A stretch of 64,000 nt of DNA from Vampirovibrionales bacterium (GTDB lineage: Bacteria > Cyanobacteriota > Vampirovibrionia > Vampirovibrionales > Vampirovibrionaceae): contig JAJCZA010000023.1 in the NCBI GenBank assembly GCA_029262635.1, forward strand, positions 62,001-126,000. Reading direction: 5' to 3'. A model generated the notes under the pieces. The model was not told where the DNA came from. It saw only the letters and a program-made list of their open reading frames with translations, and searched no databases. Shown in pieces: positions 7,661-56,451 of the stretch; within the stretch, counting starts at the first letter, position 1; the number at the start of each line of letters is the position of its first letter. A program made the position numbers and the translations under genes.

Positions 7661-7792
7661 CTAACTAAACGCGCTCGCCTGGTGCTGTTCTTTGTGTTCC
7701 CACTCCAGTAGTGCGTTTTGAACTTCTCGATAGACATTGGTGTCTGTGTCATCTGAATAAGAGGTCAATCGACCCGAGAATTGAATTTGCAT
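7661..7792 (-). CDS. 43-residue small protein of unknown function
   Basis: The frame is open up to 8095, but the ATG at 7792 is preceded by a near-perfect AAGGAGGAG Shine-Dalgarno at a typical distance, so I take the short product. It begins MQIQFSG and continues with a polar sequence ending WEHKEQHQASAFS. The MQI start and early aromatic-Gly motif recall the two paralogues at 44.9-46.1 kb, which also begin MQIT. A good leftward terminator follows at 7512-7538, which supports a real minus-strand unit. If the longer frame were used it would overlap the start of the plus-strand gene at 8052. Confidence 0.5.
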   Translation of the reverse strand: MQIQFSGRLTSYSDDTDTNVYREVQNALLEWEHKEQHQASAFS

Positions 7793-8051: not shown

Positions 8052-8873
8052 ATGTCTTCCCTCTCTCTATCCTCAGCTTTGTCTCTTCCAGTCAAATTTC
8101 AGGCTGAATGGACACGTAAAAAACCACCGGCAAAAAAGGACTGGCATTTAGAGGTACAAAGCCAATCCGATTGTTTTAAATCACCTGACTCAAGACAACC
8201 CAGTGATAAATTACTTCAACACGCTATTGATTCATTGATGGCTCCTAAAGGCTCTGGGTTTTGTGTTATTTCAGGACTTATGAAAACGTTAGGCCTCTCT
8301 GAAGCAGGAATCGTTTATTTTCAGAACCAAATAACCCGAGCGCTCTGTAGCAAACTACATTGGGAACCTTCAGGCCAAGAACCTGACCTCTGTAAGGAGT
8401 ATGATTATGGAAACATGTTATTACATTTAGACTATAGTTTAAATATGATGATTTCAGAACCTAACCACTATAAAAACGTACCTTTTCTTTCTCTTGCCTA
8501 CCCCCCTTTTAAAGGAATAGATGAGAAAGAGGGGCGTATCCAAGTTGCTAATATTCCATTATGGATCCGAGAACATCCGCTTTTATCAAAGCTACCTTTT
8601 ATTTCCTTTCTTTCGGATCAAAAGGGTTCGGCTTATTTTACAAAGAATTTAAAGGATTCACTATTTAGTCAAACTCAAAAAAAAATATTTAAAAACTATA
8701 TTATTACCCTAGATGAAATCGACCATACAGACGACATGCCGGTTGTCTTAATCAATAATGCGCCTGTAACCGGAGTTTTTCATGGGCGAACAGGTTTAAC
8801 AAGCGGTGTGAATAGTCATGGTGACGAACGAATCCGGGGTTTCTATAGAATGTTTGCCAGATTCAAAGATTAG
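8052..8873 (+). CDS. unknown protein
   Basis: The ATG at 8052 gives 273 residues; a GTG at 8040 would add four. I recognise no family. The N-terminus (SSLSLSSALSLPVKFQAEW) is Ser-rich with a VKFQ motif similar in position to the FG motif of other proteins here. The middle contains an HLDYSL segment and a loop rich in Pro (LAYPPFKGI). The C-terminus includes the short motifs VFHGRTG and NSHGDERIRGFYRMF; the conserved-looking His and Arg could be functional but this is a guess. The coding strand is more A/T-rich than its neighbours. It is convergent with argS. Confidence 0.6.
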   Translation: MSSLSLSSALSLPVKFQAEWTRKKPPAKKDWHLEVQSQSDCFKSPDSRQPSDKLLQHAIDSLMAPKGSGFCVISGLMKTLGLSEAGIVYFQNQITRALCSKLHWEPSGQEPDLCKEYDYGNMLLHLDYSLNMMISEPNHYKNVPFLSLAYPPFKGIDEKEGRIQVANIPLWIREHPLLSKLPFISFLSDQKGSAYFTKNLKDSLFSQTQKKIFKNYIITLDEIDHTDDMPVVLINNAPVTGVFHGRTGLTSGVNSHGDERIRGFYRMFARFKD

Positions 8874-31589: not shown

Positions 31590-32525
31590 ATGTTTTCCAC
31601 CCCCCCCCTAATACCAACCGCCTCTCAGCCTGTCATTCGCTTTGGCTGGTGGAAAAAAGACCATGAAATCATTAATGTCGGAGCGCTCCATCAACTTCCA
31701 AGCTCTCCTTGGCAAACCTACTTAGGCAGACACCTTCCTCGAATAGAATATGTAGATGACACTCAAGATGTCTTTGAACGGGGACCCAAGCATTTTATTA
31801 ATCTGGAAGCCATCACCAATGAGTGGCTTTTGAAAAAACCCGAAGCTTACCCTACTTGGCATAACGTTGATATGCGTTTTAAACCCAAAACCCGAAAGAA
31901 AATCACGAAAGACTGGAACAACTCCCTTAAGCATATGCATGTTCCCCAAGGAAGCAATACCATTACGAGTATTTTGAATGCCTATCAAAACTCGGTTGAA
32001 ACGTATCAAAAACTGACCCAGGCAAACCCTTTCATACCCGAAAAGCAACAGGAAAGCTGGGCCATGGATTTAGATGAGTCGCTGGGAGAGTTGATGCATT
32101 ACGTAGGCGATCTGTACATGCCCCTTCACACCAGTCAATATTTTGACTGGAAAATTTTTGGCGAACAAGGGCTCCATGAGTTCATTGAAGGAAAATTACT
32201 CTCTTCCAAAGATTACCAGCAAATCTTGCAAAAAGCAGAACAAAATAAGTCCGCCCTCCCTGAGGTGACACCACAAACGTTAAAACCTTTTATCACTCAG
32301 GAAATTCGACGGACCCATATGCAGATTTTTAAAATCGTGGATATTTGCCGAAAAGTAAAAAAACAATTCCCAGAAGAAACAACGGCCCCCAAAATCATTG
32401 AGCAAGAATTAAGAAAGCGGTTGAAACCTCTGATTGCCAAGCAGCTCACTCAAGCTCAAACCAGTTTGGCCACCCTTCTCCAGCTCGTACAAGCCGAAGG
32501 ACTCAAAGGGCAGTCCATCCATTAA
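31590..32525 (+). CDS. zinc-dependent phospholipase C / S1-P1 nuclease superfamily protein
   Basis: This encodes 311 residues and carries a full tri-zinc ligand set in the family order: Trp20/21 and His25 near the N-terminus, Asp56/57, His68 in PKHFINLE, His170, Asp174 and His180 in ELMHYVGDLYMPLHTS, and His196 with Glu200 in GLHEFIEGKLL. The HxxxE pair is as in bacterial phospholipase C and S1 nuclease. Enzymes of this fold hydrolyse phosphodiesters in lipids or nucleic acids. They are normally secreted, but here there is no hydrophobic signal peptide; instead a short Pro/Thr-rich tail precedes IRFGWW. Confidence 0.75.
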   Translation: MFSTPPLIPTASQPVIRFGWWKKDHEIINVGALHQLPSSPWQTYLGRHLPRIEYVDDTQDVFERGPKHFINLEAITNEWLLKKPEAYPTWHNVDMRFKPKTRKKITKDWNNSLKHMHVPQGSNTITSILNAYQNSVETYQKLTQANPFIPEKQQESWAMDLDESLGELMHYVGDLYMPLHTSQYFDWKIFGEQGLHEFIEGKLLSSKDYQQILQKAEQNKSALPEVTPQTLKPFITQEIRRTHMQIFKIVDICRKVKKQFPEETTAPKIIEQELRKRLKPLIAKQLTQAQTSLATLLQLVQAEGLKGQSIH

Positions 32526-39239: not shown

Positions 39240-40790
39240 ATGGAAATTTCGATTAAGCCGAAACAGTTGTGGAACCAGAAGAAACGCCAACAGCAAAAAC
39301 TGACTTTAATACCCGCTGCGCAAATAAACCCTTCTCGGTCGGCATCATCCGTACAGGCCAATCGTCTTCATTTTAGCAGTCAGTTGGCTCAAGTTCATTT
39401 CTCAGGGGTTCAAGCTCCTCAACATTTAGATTCGCTGGCGAATATACCCGTGATTGATCTTCTACAGTTGAAAAAAGAGATTCAATCCCCCGATAAAGCG
39501 GGCCAACCCATGATTCAAAAAATGGGCCATGCGCTTCGGGATGTGGGTTTTTTCGCGATGACCGGTTTAGACTTACTCGCTCCACCCGCATTGTTTGACC
39601 AGCATTATAAAGCGACAGAAACTCTATTTAATGCGCTGAGAAAAGACCCGGAGCGTTACAAAAAATTGTATCTGTATCAACAGGGGATTGAACGAGGAGT
39701 ACACCCGGCAGGAGAAGTCCAGCCGGTAAAAATGGCTTTAGGCAAGCAGTTGGATATATCGGGACTGCACATTGAATTAGTCGAAGAGCAAGGCCAGCCG
39801 ATGGCCAAAATTCGCCACGGGTCAAATGAAAAAACAGTTGCCTTTCCAAAGGGTCTGTTTGATCCGAAACAAGAAAGCCCGGAAGAAACTTCGGTGACCA
39901 TTGATGGCTTCATGGTTCGTTTAAGGCGAACCGGAGTTGATATCACTCAGCCAGGAGGTTTGACCGTCGTCGTTCCAGACTCTAAAGAGAATTGGCTCTC
40001 TGGAGCGAGTCCTAACTTTTATCCTATTGAGCACCCTGCCTTTCAGCAGGCCAACCGGGCCGTTTACCATGCACTGGAAGCTATCGGGGTTGAGGTGGTG
40101 CAGGCCCTCTCTCTCTATCTGGAAGATACGAATAAGATACTGTTAAATCGGGTTGTGGATGAGTCAGGACGTTATGAAGGCGATTCGATGATGCGGGCCA
40201 TCCATTATCCGGCTTATACGGCTGAGGAAATGGCCGGGACCCCGGATGAAGCCGAGATTATCCGGGCTGGAGCGCATAAGGATATTTCGCTTATTACTCT
40301 GCTCCCGCAGGCGTCGACTCAGGGGCTTCAGTTACAGCAAAAAGACGGCTCCTGGCTTTCTATTTACGCACAACAGGGAATGGTGTTGGTGAATGCCGGT
40401 GATACTTTGCGTTTAATGACTGAAGGGTTAAAGGCTGGTAATGGAGAGTCGCGAGAAATTGTCTCGACCCTGCACCGGGTGGTCGGTGATAAGGCGACGG
40501 TGGCTACAAAACGCTATGCCAGCCCCTTATTTTTCAATGTCAATTGGAAAAAAGACCTGGTGAATCTGGCAACGAGTCAGCCGGCTCATGCAGTGGACCT
40601 CGATCGAAAAATTGATGTGGTCGCTTCGCCGGGTTTACGCTACCTTCATGCCCGCCACACCGCAAGTCGAACCTTACCGCCAGGAACCTCTTATAAAGCG
40701 TACGAAACCCAGATGCGCTCGATGAGCGAACGTTTGAAGCTTTGGGTGGATGCGCATCCAGAACTGAATGTTAAATGGATTGAGGATTAA
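39240..40790 (+). CDS. 2-oxoglutarate/Fe(II)-dependent oxygenase (isopenicillin N synthase-like), long form
   Basis: This encodes 516 residues. IPVIDLLQLKKE (about residue 69) starts the DIOX-N region and AGAHKDISLITLLPQ holds His346 and Asp348. STLHRVVGDKATVATKRYAS supplies His412 and Arg425, completing the iron triad and 2-oxoglutarate salt bridge. Family members are about 330 residues. The excess here is an N-terminal ~65-residue polar tail (with HFSSQLAQVHFSG) and an insert of roughly 100 residues at about 150-255. GGGGAGGG precedes the ATG. The substrate is unknown. Confidence 0.8.
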   Translation: MEISIKPKQLWNQKKRQQQKLTLIPAAQINPSRSASSVQANRLHFSSQLAQVHFSGVQAPQHLDSLANIPVIDLLQLKKEIQSPDKAGQPMIQKMGHALRDVGFFAMTGLDLLAPPALFDQHYKATETLFNALRKDPERYKKLYLYQQGIERGVHPAGEVQPVKMALGKQLDISGLHIELVEEQGQPMAKIRHGSNEKTVAFPKGLFDPKQESPEETSVTIDGFMVRLRRTGVDITQPGGLTVVVPDSKENWLSGASPNFYPIEHPAFQQANRAVYHALEAIGVEVVQALSLYLEDTNKILLNRVVDESGRYEGDSMMRAIHYPAYTAEEMAGTPDEAEIIRAGAHKDISLITLLPQASTQGLQLQQKDGSWLSIYAQQGMVLVNAGDTLRLMTEGLKAGNGESREIVSTLHRVVGDKATVATKRYASPLFFNVNWKKDLVNLATSQPAHAVDLDRKIDVVASPGLRYLHARHTASRTLPPGTSYKAYETQMRSMSERLKLWVDAHPELNVKWIED

Positions 40791-44830: not shown

Positions 44831-44912
44831 TAAAAATAGGGCAAGTCAGATGTTTTAGGAACGTTATCTTATTGATAAGCAGCAATGAAAGGTTCTGAAC
44901 CATGCAAATAAC
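44831..44912 (+). repeat. duplicated leader, copy 1
   Basis: This is an 82-base segment from TAAAAATAGGGCAAG through the start codon and first codons of the gene at 44902. It is repeated, with about four substitutions and one indel, at 45482-45564 in front of the paralogous gene. It contains TTATC-TTATT-GATAA (a short hairpin). Confidence 0.85.
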
Positions 44913-45468
44913 GGCTTCCTCTCCAACCACTCATACCATACCCCAAGGGCAACCTAAATTTGGGCATTTGGCGAATAAAAAAGAGTTTGAAGAAATTAAA
45001 GCAATAGCTAGCGCTCAAGGTTTGAACAGTGACAAGCTAAATCCCCATTTTGCGATTATTAACGGGAAAGGCGGAATGTTAAAAGCTATTCAGGATGGAG
45101 TAGTTAACAAAGATACATTTAATAATTATAAACAGTGGCTTAGTCGGGTAAGTATTCCGTTTGTTTCACAACCTTTTATGGTGACTCTGGAGAACACCAA
45201 GGATCCTCAAATGGTGGATAAGTTTTTAAAGACGACTCCTCAAGAAGTTGATTCCATGAATGTTGCCGAGTATAAGATGCTTAACCCTGCCAAAAGTCGA
45301 GGTAAATCGGATACCCAAGTTCTTCAGATGGTCTTGGATGAAAGCCCGTGTGCTGTGTATGTGTATAAAACAGGACCAAAACAGTTACTACTTCTTCAAG
45401 TTCCTTATGAGCGAGAGGATAAGCCCAAAGTAGAGCCTGATATGTTGCTTTATCAAAAAACGAAATAA
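44902..45468 (+). CDS. FG-motif protein, tandem paralogue 1
   Basis: This encodes 188 residues beginning MQITASSPTTHTIPQ and then GQPKFGHLANKKEFEEI. No transmembrane helix or signal peptide is visible. The body is mixed alpha/beta with a conserved centre (QPFMVTLENTKDPQMV with KTTPQEVD) and an end GPKQLLLLQVP. It is paralogous to the next gene: QPKFGHLA-x-KKEF, QPx-MV-x-L and GPKQxLxLL are shared. A family of N-terminally FG-tagged proteins is common in this lineage by my recollection, but the function is unknown. Confidence 0.75.
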   Translation: MQITASSPTTHTIPQGQPKFGHLANKKEFEEIKAIASAQGLNSDKLNPHFAIINGKGGMLKAIQDGVVNKDTFNNYKQWLSRVSIPFVSQPFMVTLENTKDPQMVDKFLKTTPQEVDSMNVAEYKMLNPAKSRGKSDTQVLQMVLDESPCAVYVYKTGPKQLLLLQVPYEREDKPKVEPDMLLYQKTK

Positions 45469-45481
45469 GAGGCTTTGCTTC

Positions 45482-45564
45482 TAAAAATAGGGCAAGTCAG
45501 ATGCTTTAGGAACGTTATCTTATTGATAAGTAGCAATGAAAAGGTTCTAACCCATGCAAATAAC
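45482..45564 (+). repeat. duplicated leader, copy 2
   Basis: This is the second copy of the leader at 44831-44912, located directly after the first gene's stop and extending through the MQI codons of the second gene. The duplication therefore covered the promoter/leader and the coding region. Confidence 0.85.
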
Positions 45565-46138
45565 AACGTTTACTCCAACCTCAGTCTCTCAAGCGACGCC
45601 CCAAAAGCAGCCTAAATTTGGCCACTTGGCGAGTAAAAAAGAGTTTAGAGAAATTCAAAATATTGCTGGGAAATTAGGGATAGAGAGTAGTGCTTTAAAC
45701 CCAAATTTTACTCTTGTTAATAACCAAAGTAGAATTCCCTTTTACAATTTTTTTAGATGGAGAATACCGAATCTCCTAGCGCTTAAAAAAGCGGCTAAAG
45801 AGTATGGAGAATTCCTTCAAGGAGATAGTATTAGGCGGCTTCAGCAACCTTTAATGATAGTGCTTCAAAACTTTCCAACCCAAAAGAGCAAAAATAAATT
45901 TTTAGCTATCACTCCCAAGGAAGAACTGAAAGCAATTGTATCGGGCCTTAAAAAAATTGATCCTCAAGCTTTCCGGGGAAGAACGGATGATGAAATCGCT
46001 CAATATGTTTCAGAAAACTCTATTTCTTATAAGAAATATGAATCAGGACCCAAACAGATGCTTATTTTACTTAATCCCAAGGGTTTTTCAATGAATAGAG
46101 AGGACTTTTATCTGATTATCCCATTCGACAAGTTGTAA
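45554..46138 (+). CDS. FG-motif protein, tandem paralogue 2
   Basis: This encodes 194 residues beginning MQITTFTPTSVSQATPQ and then KQPKFGHLASKKEFREI. Relative to paralogue 1 it has an insert rich in aromatic and basic residues (FYNFFRWRIPNLL, about residues 62-74) and ends with NPKGFSMNREDFYLIIPF. The core (QPLMIVLQNFPTQKSKNKFL, TPKEEL, FRGRTDDEIAQYV and GPKQMLILL) aligns throughout with paralogue 1. It shares the duplicated leader. It is convergent with the small membrane gene at 46273-46539. Confidence 0.75.
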   Translation: MQITTFTPTSVSQATPQKQPKFGHLASKKEFREIQNIAGKLGIESSALNPNFTLVNNQSRIPFYNFFRWRIPNLLALKKAAKEYGEFLQGDSIRRLQQPLMIVLQNFPTQKSKNKFLAITPKEELKAIVSGLKKIDPQAFRGRTDDEIAQYVSENSISYKKYESGPKQMLILLNPKGFSMNREDFYLIIPFDKL

Positions 46139-51639: not shown

Positions 51640-52647
51640 ATGCTGACTGATGAACGACTAAAGTGGGTGGATGGATTACTGGGAACGATTTCTCTTTTAG
51701 GTTTTTTGGGAGGCGTGGGGAGCCATGTTTGGTTTCTAGAACTATTCCGGCATTTTTCCCTACAGTATTGGGTACTAAGCTTTCTGGCGTTGGCGATTCT
51801 CTTGGTCCGATGGGATGAACGCCGATTACGCTATTGGTTGCTTCCGCTACTGCTTTGCCTTATGGTGCATGGCAATCAACTGCACCCATATTTCTTTCCG
51901 TCGAACATCAAACCAACTTCAGGTGTTGAGGCAAGTAAAACACCTCCCCTGAAGTTATTACATATGAATGTGTTGAAATTCAATCAGAACTACCCAGCGG
52001 TGGCAAAGGTGATCCGAGCCGATCAGCCTGATATTTTATCCCTTCAGGAAGTCGATAAACGCTGGCTAAAAAAACTGAATGAATTAGGGGCTTTGGATAA
52101 TTATCCACACCGGGCGGTGCACCCTTCAACGGAAAACGGGCTATATAGCCGAATTCCAATGGATTCTTTAACAACAGAGCTTGTCCCGAACGCGCAGGAC
52201 GGAATTTTTATCGAGCGAGGTGAAGGCAGTATTCTGGTGGCCCGGTTTAAATGGCATAAGCAATCGGTAACACTACTGAACTTTCATCCGGCCACCCCGG
52301 TAACGCCGGGACAGTACCAAGGGCAGCAGCGTCATTTTGAAACCCTGATCCAAAAACATCAGGCAGAACCCGGCCATGTGATTGTGGTGGGCGATTTAAA
52401 CACCACCCCGTGGTCGGCAGGGTTTCAGAAAATAACAAGCCAATTAGGACTTCAGGACGCTCGTCAAGGAAAGGGACTTCAACCGACATGGCCTGCTTTT
52501 TTCCCGTTGATGGCTATTCCCATTGATCATGTGCTCACGTCATCCCATGTTGTCACACAAGCTCAACGGGTTGGGCCGTTTGTTGGGTCGGATCACCTAC
52601 CCATTTATATCGAACTGGGTTTTTTGCCCCGGAATCCGGTAAAATAA
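51640..52647 (+). CDS. membrane-anchored endonuclease/exonuclease/phosphatase protein, paralogue 1 of 4
   Basis: This encodes 335 residues. Hydrophobic helices (about 10-35, 41-57 and 63-81) precede an EEP domain: KLLHMNVLKFN (catalytic Asn), LSLQEVDKRW (metal-binding Glu), LLNFHPATP (His), VVGDLNTTPWS (Asp/Asn), PIDHVL and FVGSDHLPIYIEL (final Asp-His). All catalytic positions are present. EEP enzymes cut phosphodiester or phosphomonoester bonds in nucleic acids, lipids or sugars. The soluble domain probably faces outside the cytoplasm. Confidence 0.88.
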   Translation: MLTDERLKWVDGLLGTISLLGFLGGVGSHVWFLELFRHFSLQYWVLSFLALAILLVRWDERRLRYWLLPLLLCLMVHGNQLHPYFFPSNIKPTSGVEASKTPPLKLLHMNVLKFNQNYPAVAKVIRADQPDILSLQEVDKRWLKKLNELGALDNYPHRAVHPSTENGLYSRIPMDSLTTELVPNAQDGIFIERGEGSILVARFKWHKQSVTLLNFHPATPVTPGQYQGQQRHFETLIQKHQAEPGHVIVVGDLNTTPWSAGFQKITSQLGLQDARQGKGLQPTWPAFFPLMAIPIDHVLTSSHVVTQAQRVGPFVGSDHLPIYIELGFLPRNPVK

Positions 52648-52654
52648 AGGGCGT

Positions 52655-53629
52655 ATGATGCCTGCTATTATTTTTATTCTGCGTGTTACGGCCTTGCTTC
52701 TATTAGGCTTTAGTATGGCTGGCTTTTGGGGGGGTTGGAGCTCACTGTTTGATTTGGCTTGTCACTTTCGGGTGCAATACACCATTATTGCAAGCATACT
52801 TCTACTCATGGCCGTTGCGAGCAAGCAATGGCTCGTCGCAGGTATCGCAGGAGTCTGCCTTTTAACCAATGGGTTTGTTATTTCGCCTTATTATAAGCCT
52901 CAGAACGCTAACGAGATGAATGTGAGCCGGTTGTCACCTCCAATTTCCTTGCTTCATCTAAATGTGCTTAAAGTGAATTCAGGAAAAGCAAGCGTTCTAC
53001 GCCTGATTCAGGAAAAAAAACCCGACTTGGTTTCTCTGCTGGAGGTCGATAAAAATTGGATTGATAGACTAAACCCTGTGTTAAACGATTACCCTTATCA
53101 ATTGGCTCAACCTCAGGATGATAATTTTGGCATTGCTTTATATAGTAAAATTCCACTGAAGAATATGTCCGTTATCTATTTCGGCAAGGATTTTCATCAG
53201 CGTTATTTCCCTTCGATTTATGCTGAAAGCAAGGATGAGCGACTGAGTATTCTGGTAACCCACCCCTTGCCACCGATCTCTGGATTTGAGGTGAGAAACA
53301 CCCAACTTCGAGAAATCGCAAAGGCACGGACGGAGTGGTATGACAATGCGCTTGTGGTTGGGGATCTGAACATTACCCCGTGGTCGGTCTTTTTTCAGCG
53401 TTTCTTATCAGAAAGCGACCTTCGGGATTCTCAGAAGGGGTTTGGAATCCAGCCTTCATGGCCAACAGCTTATCCGTTGTTGGGAATCCCCATTGATCAC
53501 GTGTTGGTAAGCCCGAAAATTCAGGTAACGAAACGGGAAACAGGGCCGTTTGTCGGATCCGATCATTTGCCGGTTTACGTGGAACTTCGACTTCCGGCAG
53601 ACGGTCAATCTGAGATTCAGGTAGAATAG
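52655..53629 (+). CDS. membrane-anchored EEP protein, paralogue 2 of 4
   Basis: This encodes 324 residues (two adjacent ATGs at 52655 and 52658). The layout is the same as paralogue 1: helices near the start (SLFDLACHFRVQY is shared by all four as a linker), then SLLHLNVLKVN, LVSLLEVDKNW, VTHPLPPIS, VVGDLNITPWS, PIDHVLVSP and FVGSDHLPVYVEL. The key residues are intact. It lies seven bases after paralogue 1. Confidence 0.88.
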   Translation: MMPAIIFILRVTALLLLGFSMAGFWGGWSSLFDLACHFRVQYTIIASILLLMAVASKQWLVAGIAGVCLLTNGFVISPYYKPQNANEMNVSRLSPPISLLHLNVLKVNSGKASVLRLIQEKKPDLVSLLEVDKNWIDRLNPVLNDYPYQLAQPQDDNFGIALYSKIPLKNMSVIYFGKDFHQRYFPSIYAESKDERLSILVTHPLPPISGFEVRNTQLREIAKARTEWYDNALVVGDLNITPWSVFFQRFLSESDLRDSQKGFGIQPSWPTAYPLLGIPIDHVLVSPKIQVTKRETGPFVGSDHLPVYVELRLPADGQSEIQVE

Positions 53630-53673
53630 TAAGATTCGGTTGTCTTCGCTAAAACGGAAGGAGTTTGAATTCC

Positions 53674-54408
53674 ATGAAACACGCCCGGCAAGTTATTTAT
53701 AAGGCGTTGCGATGGCTATTGATGATTGCTCTTGTGGTGTGCGGCGTTAGTGGAATAGGAAACCAAGAGCGAGCCAACGCGAAATCCATGGGATTGAATC
53801 CGCTGTTCGACACTGAAGCACCTCAGGGGTTCAAGGTATTGCAGCGGGGAAGTGTCCCCAAGGCAACGGGTAAAAAAGGCCGCTATCTGCTGATGACGAA
53901 TCCGAAGACCAAAACCATGGCACTGGTTATAGAAGTAATTCCCCGAGATGTGATCCAGCCGAAGCCGGGTACCTCACTGAATACCCACGACTTGAGCCAA
54001 CTGACAGAATATTTGCTGAAACAATTTGTGGGGTTGGGCGATTTTAAAATCAATGTGGAAAAAGATCGCTGGCTTCGGCTGGAAGGCGATCCTTTTTTTC
54101 ATACCCAATGGCTTCGAATTAAATTCAAGGACGGCTTTGAAGAAGCGGACACAGTGATTCGTTTGCATTACCCTCAAGGGCGCCAAACCATTCTATTGAT
54201 GGGGCGACCGGCGACTGGTGGGTATGATGATTGCCCCACGCTTCGCAAAGATTATTTTATGCTAGAAAACCAGAGCATCGATTTAATTCAAACGTATCAC
54301 TTGGAAAAGGACGCTTTCGGGGACATCGAATTTAATAGGCTAAGCCATTACCTGGGAAACCTGTTTAAGAGTCACCTGAAAAAGAACTGCTTTGTTGATG
54401 AAAGATAA
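53674..54408 (+). CDS. membrane or secreted protein of unknown function within the EEP array
   Basis: This encodes 244 residues from the ATG at 53674 (AGGAG 11 bases upstream; TTG at 53665 is an alternative). A hydrophobic N-terminus (about 13-30) is followed by DTEAPQGFKVLQRG and a mixed beta sequence (LLMTNPKTKTMALVIEV). This start resembles the AGATSAIFGETAPEGYMAMF part of the gene at 56495. It sits between EEP paralogues 2 and 3 and overlaps paralogue 3 by 11 bases, so it is likely part of the same operon and function. Confidence 0.7.
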   Translation: MKHARQVIYKALRWLLMIALVVCGVSGIGNQERANAKSMGLNPLFDTEAPQGFKVLQRGSVPKATGKKGRYLLMTNPKTKTMALVIEVIPRDVIQPKPGTSLNTHDLSQLTEYLLKQFVGLGDFKINVEKDRWLRLEGDPFFHTQWLRIKFKDGFEEADTVIRLHYPQGRQTILLMGRPATGGYDDCPTLRKDYFMLENQSIDLIQTYHLEKDAFGDIEFNRLSHYLGNLFKSHLKKNCFVDER

Positions 54409-55432
54409 AACGGTTAATACCCATAAAAATAGTTATTCCGGTAGAAAAAGGTTAAATTTTCTTTTTATAAGCTTTTTGGCAGTTCCGTTTTTTATGGCGG
54501 CTCTACTTAGTGTGTTGTCTTTTTTAGGGGAGCGACACTGGCTGTTTGATTTAACCGCCCATGGACGATTGCAGTACTTTCTTTTTTTTCTGTTAGCTTT
54601 TGGTGTTTGTATCGCCTTACGGAAAAAAACGGGGGTGGCTATTTCACTGGCCTTTCTTGTAGCGCATGGCATGACAATTTTACCGTTTTACTGGCCCATG
54701 GCCGAAGAAAAAGCGCTGGGAGATCAGCCGTCGATTAAAATTCTGCAGGCTAATCTCTGGGGGAGGGCCGGACGTTTGCCCTGTCAGAATTTGCTGATAC
54801 AAACTCAAGAAAAACAGCCGGACGTATTAACGTTAGAAGAACTCTCGCCCGCCTGTCATCAAGTGCTCATTGAAGCCGGAATTGAGCAAAAATATCCTTA
54901 TGCCCAGCACATTGAAGCCACTCGAATTTCTTTGTACAGCAGAATTCCTCTGAACGCCTCTCGGATTCAATTTGTCCATGCAGGCAACGGCTCATCGATT
55001 ATTGCTGAATTAAACTTAGGAAAGCGGCCTATTTTATTGCTTATGGCCCACACCACCCGCCCCATAAACGCTGCGTCAGATCAAAACCAGAAACAGCATT
55101 TTAAAGAAATGGCAGACATTATTCAGCATCAACGTTTACCTGTGATTGTAGTGGGGGATCTCAATACCACGCCCTGGTCGGTGGTGTATCGACACTTTAT
55201 GACGAAAACAAGCTTGGTAGACACACAAAAGGGTCGAGGGCTTCAACTCTCTTGGCCTGCGACATATCATGTTCCACCCATTCATTTACTGCCGTGTTTG
55301 TTTGGTATTGATCATGCACTGGTCAGCCATGATTTCTATGTCAAACAGCGCGAGCTGGGTCAACGCATCGGATCGGATCATCTGCCCCTGTTTATTGAGT
55401 TGACTCTGGATGCAGAGGCGGGCAAGGGGTAA
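54398..55432 (+). CDS. membrane-anchored EEP protein, paralogue 3 of 4
   Basis: This encodes 344 residues from the ATG at 54398 (two in-frame TTGs precede it). It has hydrophobic helices at about 18-40 and 51-82, then KILQANLWGRA, VLTLEELSPAC, LMAHTTRPI, VVGDLNTTPWS, GIDHALVSHDF and RIGSDHLPLFIEL. It keeps the Asn, Glu, His, Asp and His catalytic residues. It diverges more than the others around the His loop. Confidence 0.87.
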   Translation: MKDKTVNTHKNSYSGRKRLNFLFISFLAVPFFMAALLSVLSFLGERHWLFDLTAHGRLQYFLFFLLAFGVCIALRKKTGVAISLAFLVAHGMTILPFYWPMAEEKALGDQPSIKILQANLWGRAGRLPCQNLLIQTQEKQPDVLTLEELSPACHQVLIEAGIEQKYPYAQHIEATRISLYSRIPLNASRIQFVHAGNGSSIIAELNLGKRPILLLMAHTTRPINAASDQNQKQHFKEMADIIQHQRLPVIVVGDLNTTPWSVVYRHFMTKTSLVDTQKGRGLQLSWPATYHVPPIHLLPCLFGIDHALVSHDFYVKQRELGQRIGSDHLPLFIELTLDAEAGKG

Positions 55433-55452
55433 AATCCCGGTATAATAAAGGA

Positions 55453-56451
55453 ATGCTCATTCAATTTCCCTCTGGAATTTCAACCCGAATCAACGCATGG
55501 CTGACCCATAAACGGGTCCGCTTGTTGGTCAAGGTCATGTTAGTTTTGATTTGTGTAATGACCTGTACCGGTTTTACAGGGCATTGGAGCTGGGTGCTGG
55601 ATTTAACCAGCCATTTTCGCTTGCAATATATGATGGTTCAGGTACTCTTTGCCGGGCTTTTTATTTTTATGCGACGACCACTTTGGCTACTAACCATGCT
55701 GATTTTTTCGATAATTAACGTGGTTCAAATTTTACCCTTTTATGTACCCCCACCTAAAATACGTGCTCACGGACAGTCCATTCAAGTTTTGCATTTGAAT
55801 GTGTTTCGTTTTAATGGGGAGCATCAGCGGGTTCTGAATTATATTGAAAAGACCCATCCGGATTTTATATCCCTAGCCGAGTTTGATGCAAACTGGATTA
55901 AGGCGACCCAAGATTCGGCCGTCTTAAAGCAGTTTCCCTATCATCAGATAGATGCTACTTCCCGCCTGGCCTTATTTAGCCGTTATCCTTTGAAGCAACT
56001 GGACTTTATTCCCGTGGCGCCCGGACAAAGCGAAGGACGGGACGCCTTGATTATCGCCCGGTTTGAGCTGGACGACGAATTAGTCGCTCTCGCTTTAATG
56101 CATCCAAAGCCACCGATTCTGCCGTATTTGGTTCAACGACAACAGGCCCATTTAACAGAACTAAAAACACGTTTACCCACCTTTCCCAAACGGTTTATTT
56201 TACTGGGTGACTTTAACATGACCTCTTGGTCGGCTGTGTTTCATCGCCTAACTCATGACATGGGTGTTCGAGATACTCGTTTAGGACTTGGTTTACAGCT
56301 ATCCTGGCCGGTTCATTCGCCGTTGATGATGCTACCGATCGATCATGCCTTGGTGACGGAGGGTTGGGTTGTTCTTTCACGACACACAGGTGAGTGGGTT
56401 GGCTCGGATCATTTACCTGTACATCTGACATTAGCGTTAAATAAGGTATAA
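55453..56451 (+). CDS. membrane-anchored EEP protein, paralogue 4 of 4
   Basis: This encodes 332 residues. Helices at about 26-45, 53-72 and 76-97 precede QVLHLNVFRFN, ISLAEFDANW, ALMHPKPPIL, LLGDFNMTSWS, PIDHALV and WVGSDHLPVHLTL. It uses Phe and Ser in the Asp loop (DFNMTS) where the others have Leu and Pro. Catalytic residues are otherwise intact. It is the last EEP gene; the accessory gene at 56495 follows. Confidence 0.87.
   Translation: MLIQFPSGISTRINAWLTHKRVRLLVKVMLVLICVMTCTGFTGHWSWVLDLTSHFRLQYMMVQVLFAGLFIFMRRPLWLLTMLIFSIINVVQILPFYVPPPKIRAHGQSIQVLHLNVFRFNGEHQRVLNYIEKTHPDFISLAEFDANWIKATQDSAVLKQFPYHQIDATSRLALFSRYPLKQLDFIPVAPGQSEGRDALIIARFELDDELVALALMHPKPPILPYLVQRQQAHLTELKTRLPTFPKRFILLGDFNMTSWSAVFHRLTHDMGVRDTRLGLGLQLSWPVHSPLMMLPIDHALVTEGWVVLSRHTGEWVGSDHLPVHLTLALNKV

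Follow-up and report, generated by a model that had tools for sequence, protein, structure and literature searches.

Many otherwise unrelated proteins encoded in this genome (2.99 Mb in 31 contigs) start with a common tag, in which a polar N-terminal leader ends in a short motif centred on phenylalanine. We are highly confident that the tag is real, genome-wide, encoded at the protein level and conserved, and consider it likely that it is a targeting signal. Our preferred explanation, to which we assign a probability of roughly 60%, is that the tag is a lineage-specific N-terminal targeting presequence, read by a receptor, cleaved and moved by a non-Sec route. According to this scenario, a disordered leader with much Ser, Pro and Gln but little Asp or Glu, which ends in a short Phe motif, would have been grafted onto unrelated proteins. 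A receptor would read the Phe motif, and a protease would cut after the small residue that follows Phe (after Phe-Gly in the nuclease discussed below). A route other than Sec would then bring the protein to one place, either outside (the prey cell or the surface) or a dedicated site of the cell. The leading, if tentative, candidate for the carrier would be the second flagellar-type export apparatus of the order.

The tag was first noticed in the window, that is, the whole stretch of 64,000 nucleotides analysed here (positions 62001-126000 of contig C23). All motif instances named in the preliminary description are present, but the coordinates given there mark gene starts rather than motifs. 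On the + strand, the two PKFGHLA motifs are located at 44953 and 45611, IRFGWW at 31635, VHFSG at 39393 and VKFQ at 8091. The last of these reads VKFQA and has no Gly. IQFSG is present as well, but on the opposite (minus) strand; it belongs to an ORF of 43 residues (7661-7792) which starts with MQIQFSG, consists of the tag and a short body, and is too short for the curated set described below. In the first PKFGHLA protein, leader plus tag (residues 1-21, ending in QPKFG) span 44902-44964 on the + strand, with the body extending to 45468, and in the second (residues 1-23, likewise ending in QPKFG) they span 45554-45622 on the + strand, with the body extending to 46138. A leader in which the tag motif occurs twice, as LHFSS and as VHFSG, precedes a 2OG-Fe(II) oxygenase (39240-39407, + strand; body to 40790), and a leader with the tag-like site PVKFQA precedes a protein without a Pfam match (8052-8105, + strand; body to 8873).

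The window hosts had been described as unrelated, and they are indeed otherwise different except for the PKFGHLA pair. These two proteins are tandem paralogues (24/38 identical residues in alignment columns 1-40 and 47/143 beyond) and therefore do not count as two independent cases. The 60 bp upstream of the two genes (region 44831-45553) are 96.7% identical, as opposed to ~33% identity of the protein bodies; judging by sequence, the 5′ end alone looks recently duplicated or homogenised by gene conversion. The 2OG-Fe(II) oxygenase scores above its Pfam cut-off and the S1/P1-like nuclease carrying IRFGWW just below, and the remaining window hosts, PKFGHLA proteins included, match no Pfam family at cut-off. 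The AlphaFold model of a PKFGHLA protein, computed from a two-sequence input, has a pLDDT of only 36.5. Elsewhere in the window (51640-56451), four neighbouring membrane proteins have in common an N-terminal motif, H-[FG]-[SR]-[LV]-QY, and look like tandem paralogues.

To quantify the tag, we expressed the motif of the preliminary description as the pattern [VIP][KHQR]F[GSQ] at residues 5-55 and scored it in the DNA of the genome outside the window. The pattern is present at 34/834 N-termini, compared with 34/4206 internal windows and 493/41700 shuffled N-termini (Fisher p=1.4e-10). Its N-terminal frequency is 5 times the internal one, so that the refuting outcome named in the preliminary description, a frequency equal to that in shuffled or internal sequence, was not observed. 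Individual contigs gave 14/338 N-termini versus 13/1683 internal windows (C2), 15/427 versus 18/2200 (C5) and 5/69 versus 3/323 (C22 and C1 together), and in the window itself the figures are 5/50 and 4/273. A position-specific scoring matrix (PSSM) for which 34 sites of contig C2 served as training set found, on held-out contig C5, 7/394 N-termini versus 2/1820 internal windows at score 11 (p=1.4e-4), 12/394 versus 17/1820 at score 9 and 28/394 versus 74/1820 at score 7. Plain dipeptide or tripeptide enrichment and pooled F-x counts turned out to be too coarse for the tag.

Relatives were examined at score 8 with a second PSSM, built from 66 sites of the genome itself and restricted to candidates of low hydropathy that contain few acidic residues. 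Our sample of the order comprised 18 genomes of three families, namely, the source genome's own family (f1), f2 and f3. Held-out f1 relatives carry the tag at 25/391 N-termini versus 23/1541 internal windows (p=7e-7). No significant excess was detected in the sampled genes of f3 (3/62 versus 4/213 internal) or f2 (2/106 versus 6/449, all from one genome, G008), in the stretches sampled from the rest of the class (4/219 versus 7/962) or in outside loci (5/143 versus 9/619). An F-K-G start of proteins in gut relatives (Gastranaerophilales) was not confirmed by the counts from the other families of the class.

Could such a pattern arise by chance, composition or common descent, with F-G dipeptides simply occurring in low-complexity N-termini or all cases deriving from a single paralogous family? 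We consider this extremely improbable. The two PKFGHLA proteins are admittedly paralogues, and single matches can be false, as exemplified by the N-terminus at C5 245026, which we take to belong to a ribosomal protein L16-like protein. However, the internal, shuffled and held-out controls all argue against it, the Pfam folds of tagged proteins are unrelated, and similarity among these proteins is scarce beyond genuine paralogue pairs. Codons of the Gly that follows the motif Phe are mixed (GGC 13, GGG 9, GGT 8, GGA 5), which places the signal at the protein level. No shared promoter or 5′ DNA cassette was found except for the tandem PKFGHLA pair and two short similarities on C2, and upstream k-mers of tagged genes gave a weak signal.

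The anatomy of the tag was derived from a gene sample covering the window, C2 (1-400 kb), C5 (1-500 kb), C22 (60-120 kb) and C1. A simple gene caller produced 933 genes, 166 of which have a candidate site; from the PSSM candidates, filtered on low hydropathy and few acidic residues, we picked by eye 66 tagged proteins, i.e. about 1 in 14 genes. Because of this selection, the figures that follow for grammar and composition are partly circular. The motif Phe is found at residues 6-59 (median 20), and the grammar reads P/V/I/L-[RQHK]-F-G or F-x-[GAS]. Position −2 is occupied by P (27 of 66), V (17), I (10) or L (9), position −1 by R (17), Q (13), H (10) or K (8), position +1 by G (35) or S (19) and position +2 by G (22), A (12) or S (10). 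All 31 sites that lack Gly at +1 have G, A or S at +2. Residue 3 is Ile in 18/66 proteins. Leaders, subject to the same circularity, are enriched in Pro (2.3-fold), Ser (1.6-fold) and Gln (1.4-fold), with Thr at only 1.2-fold, are depleted in Glu (0.35-fold) and Asp (0.53-fold), and have a mean net charge of +1.7. A hydrophobic core of the Sec/Tat type is missing from the five window proteins scored, in which the top 12-residue hydropathy up to the motif is 0.0-1.3; these proteins provide the independent test for Sec/Tat signals, since the rest of the curated set had been selected for low hydropathy.

Neither Pfam nor NCBIfam appears to have a model for the tag among the best 25 of 41 and the best 25 of 214 families, and the families common to several tagged proteins in these sets are those of protein bodies. 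No description of such a tag was found in the literature searched, to which most subscription papers did not belong. Four small tagged proteins (C5:163465, C5:278421, C2:283412 and L117:6286), possibly members of one small family, have F-G followed directly by an alternating, beta-like stretch and, further on, a TGDE/TGKD-like motif.

A Pfam search with 64 of the 66 tagged proteins (two cross the ends of stretches) revealed diverse bodies among the best 25 of 41 matched families. These include three alpha/beta hydrolases, ClpP, an FtsH-like AAA-M41 protein, an M17 aminopeptidase, adenosine deaminase, an AMP-binding enzyme, PhzF, a trypsin-like protease, a 2OG oxygenase, bactofilins, YidD and a TonB C-terminus. 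An apparent operon (C2:32791-38935) encodes PrkA, DUF444 (YeaH) and SpoVR, each with the tag, and next to this run, at C2 39000, comes another tagged protein that is PrkA-like. Tagged genes adjoin one another on C2 more often than expected (10 pairs versus 3.4, p=0.0006), with no clear excess on C5 (3 pairs versus 1.0 expected, p=0.08). In one relative, G026, ten tag-like genes, nine of which reach score 7, are located within 10 kb (L117:224-10381), a few kb away from the second FlhA.

For several tagged proteins, the genome also encodes an untagged counterpart from which they have diverged. For example, the tagged protein at C2 158820 shares 38% identity across 502 aa with an untagged DEAD/DSHCT helicase, the tagged AMP-binding, M17 and trypsin-like proteins also have untagged relatives, and of the four M41 matches in the genome the tagged one reaches 52.8 bits, compared with 232 for the top one. 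In some tagged proteins a membrane segment seems, by eye, to follow the tag. The idea of a sorting or secretion tag put forward in the preliminary description is partly supported, its N-terminal enrichment being confirmed in the genome itself and in f1 relatives; 'secretion' may be too narrow, because many tagged proteins (PrkA, SpoVR, the helicase- and FtsH-like paralogues) belong to types that use ATP and usually work in the cytosol.

The nuclease at 31590 is the most informative case. Its leader of 17 residues and the tag F18-G19 occupy 31590-31646 on the + strand and are followed by the codon of W20 (31647-31649, + strand) and an S1/P1-nuclease/PC-PLC-like catalytic domain with a zinc-cluster His/Asp pattern (31647-32525, + strand), assigned with Pfam PF02265, AlphaFold, VIA-align and Foldseek. 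The match to PF02265 (E=2.8e-6) scores 27.8 bits, below the curated cut-off of 29.5, and we therefore refer to the enzyme as S1/P1/PLC-like rather than as a member of the Pfam family. In the AlphaFold model (pLDDT 81.8), residues 1-14 are under 50. VIA-align superimposes the model on the 29 family rows listed with Z-scores of 15.9-19.6, the highest being that of the phospholipase C (PLC) of B. cereus, and the next row has Z 5.0; the best Foldseek hit has a probability of 1.00 and E 1.3e-3, with none at or below 0.001. By these comparisons the enzyme is predicted to have the S1/P1-nuclease/PC-PLC fold. A PDB sequence search with this nuclease alone returned nothing related, and a profile of eight nuclease sequences gave a weak match (best E 0.0025).

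Nine distinct genes for such nucleases are present in the order, and F-G is kept in 8/8 of those read. Their leaders, with start codons chosen by us (GTG in 3/7 outside the window), are 8-45 residues long and cannot be aligned with one another. The alignment of the eight homologues has 11 invariant columns, which include the F and G of the tag and six ligand-type His/Asp residues (H25, H68, H170, D174, H180 and H196), presumably the zinc ligands of the family. The residue directly after F-G is Trp in 7/8 homologues and Phe in 1/8, and the eight-sequence profile aligns the Trp with residue 1 of 4cxo, the stretch alone contributing −0.2 bits. Of the 29 family rows listed, 28 have an alignment that starts with model residue 20, which comes immediately behind F18-G19 and coincides with the first residue of the chain; in the remaining row the alignment begins at residue 19. 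The residue matched to it is number 1 in PLC, P1 nuclease, AtBFN2 and clostridial alpha-toxins, 21 in S1, 26 in TBN1 and 27 in SmNuc1. According to one report, the aligned residue of S1 nuclease is its mature N-terminus, and the N-terminal main chain of the mature S1/P1-type enzyme binds zinc (PMC5201275). Residue numbering suggests that the aligned residue is the mature N-terminus in the other family members as well. By extension, both model and alignment point to the residue after F-G as the putative mature N-terminus of the 31590-type enzyme.

With F-G placed directly before the zinc-binding first residue, the tag probably serves as a presequence that is removed behind F-G. The suggestion that a tag accounts for a phospholipase-like enzyme without a signal peptide thus fits unusually well, for the tag ends at the predicted mature N-terminus. 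The 31590 protein has the fold, the zinc-site His/Asp pattern, the aromatic first residue and the His six positions in of S1/P1 nucleases and PC-PLC, but differs from them by a score under the Pfam curated value and by an F-G presequence in place of the Sec signal peptide. For tagged proteins in general, sequence and model comparisons make cleavage after F-G or F-x-[GAS] slightly more probable than its absence.

Several features sit less easily with a cleaved presequence. At least two sites at score 6 are found in 10/66 leaders, which is odd for a single cut, the cargo includes cytosolic-type, ATP-using proteins, and some proteins have apparent membrane segments after the tag. All three would suit an uncleaved docking motif, in which F-[G/S] would attach to a scaffold, chaperone or polar hub, so that the proteins collect at one cytoplasmic site: repeated sites are expected of multivalent docking, and a membrane segment after the tag would keep the tag cytosolic. 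We nevertheless regard docking as unlikely, since an uncleaved tag would block the free N-terminus and need no fixed spacing, and in 8/8 nucleases no residue separates F-G from the zinc-binding residue despite the variable length of the leaders. A degron or handle for regulated proteolysis, serving for instance clearance at a change of life stage, would be in keeping with a disordered leader bearing a short hydrophobic motif and with the presence of ClpP, FtsH-like and trypsin-like proteases among the tagged proteins themselves. It is, however, very unlikely, because it explains neither the exact placement of the tag before Trp1 of the nucleases nor its grafting onto divergent paralogues.

Conservation of the tag in other families of proteins was judged by eye from motif-like sites in orthologues. 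In f1 and f3 orthologues, the tag is kept and the leader sequence has diverged. At least one motif-like site is present in 8/8 f1/f3 genes for the 2OG oxygenase, the weakest being that of G037, and no convincing one was seen in the f2 homologue. SpoVR of f1/f3 has a motif-like site within an N-terminal extension in 6/6 cases; the tag was found in none of the five SpoVR sequences read from f8 (six genomes match) and in none of the 16 read from f4, where LRFGS occurs by chance within the domain at one locus (L176). A perhaps related N-terminus outside the order is that of a 2057-residue protein from another family of the class (L056:6870, genome G004), which starts with MKVNFFLNHLGFTGRRED.

Known export routes were considered as carriers of the tagged proteins. 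In the predatory relative V. chlorellavorus, a type IV system with genes in three operons was proposed for predation (PMC4451040). A type IV secretion substrate was rejected for our genome (95.9% complete), which has no match to the VirB4-type ATPase (PF03135); VirB4 is found in 2/18 genomes of the order, with three matches in G031. An accessory Sec (SecA2) substrate was likewise dismissed, as the genome has one SecA only and no second copy was found in it; 17/18 genomes have a single SecA and in one none was found. Double-glycine leaders handled by C39 ABC exporters resemble the tag in being polar and presumably cut after a Gly-containing motif, but differ in having Gly-Gly instead of Phe-Gly and no large enzymes as cargo, and this route was discarded because the genome has no match to the C39 peptidase (PF03412), present in 4/18 genomes of the order. 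Sec/Tat signal peptides are also N-terminal, and the leader of secreted S1/P1 nuclease/PLC also ends before the first mature residue; nevertheless, they have a hydrophobic core, missing in the five window proteins, and no invariant Phe in a motif. A prepilin-type (class III) signal would require a hydrophobic segment after Gly and Glu at +5, which does not agree with the residues after F-G, WWKKDHEIIN in the nuclease and HLANKKEFEE or HLASKKEFRE in the PKFGHLA proteins.

Type III signals are polar, acid-poor, Ser/Pro-rich and disordered N-termini; they are not known to have a consensus or to be cleaved. The tag resembles them in its N-terminal position, disorder, Ser/Pro/Gln-rich composition and shortage of acidic residues, and most genomes of the order have two export gates. 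It differs in its clear sequence motif, probable cleavage and the many ATP-dependent cytosolic-type enzymes among its cargo. Two full-length FlhA are encoded in 16/18 genomes (G078 has one plus pieces, G063 one) and two FliP in 16/18. Export genes of the source genome are located at C5:417865-423223, C5:478705-480759 and C22:76784-87604; the second set consists of FlhA (C22:85478) and the FliP/FliQ/FliR-like genes at C5:478705-480759, and misses most of the flagellar equivalog cut-offs tested, including that of FlhA, with FliP just passing. The second FlhA adjoins FlgB/FlgC/FliE/FliF-like genes.

It is rather unlikely that the tag is the export signal of a flagellar-type (type III) apparatus, by which effectors or digestive enzymes would reach the prey through the second FliPQR/FlhA. 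The disordered, acid-poor, Ser/Pro-rich leader favours it (in part a selection effect, with nuclease residues 1-14 at pLDDT <50), as do the two FlhA and two FliP in this and most genomes of the order, and the surroundings of the second FlhA show a marginally higher density of tagged genes (21/169 versus 21/303, p=0.034). Yet this excess comes largely from one genome, G026 (9/21), the f2 genome G008 has both apparatuses and tags on 2/106 of the genes sampled, and PrkA, SpoVR and FtsH-like proteins would be odd effectors. With a marginal, one-genome excess and an f2 apparatus without clear tags, type III export is a candidate route rather than a finding.

Mitochondrial and plastid transit peptides are Ser-rich, acid-poor, positively charged leaders with a loose motif near the cut. 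They resemble the presequence proposed here in their long leaders of this composition on many unrelated enzymes, in the loose motif near the presumed cut and in the tagging of one duplicate and not the other; the bacterial host, the lack of a known import complex and the motif itself (P/φ-[RQHK]-F-G or F-x-[GAS]) set the tag apart. That the tag is a bacterial counterpart of transit peptides, a cleavable non-Sec presequence with a Phe-Gly-directed protease and one ATP-containing destination, is possible but doubtful. This destination might, equally tentatively, be the prey cytoplasm or an unrecognised compartment, and we can only speculate that ~100-200 proteins (an extrapolation) would be routed there, re-addressed copies of PrkA, FtsH, helicase and aminopeptidase among them. 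Should the preferred reading as a cleaved, receptor-read presequence be correct, perhaps 7% of proteins would be sorted by a signal that current predictors would probably miss, hinting at a protein-sorting route undescribed in bacteria. It would also explain the source of the free N-terminus in secreted-type zinc enzymes without signal peptides and yield a list of candidate predation proteins that is independent of type IV secretion.
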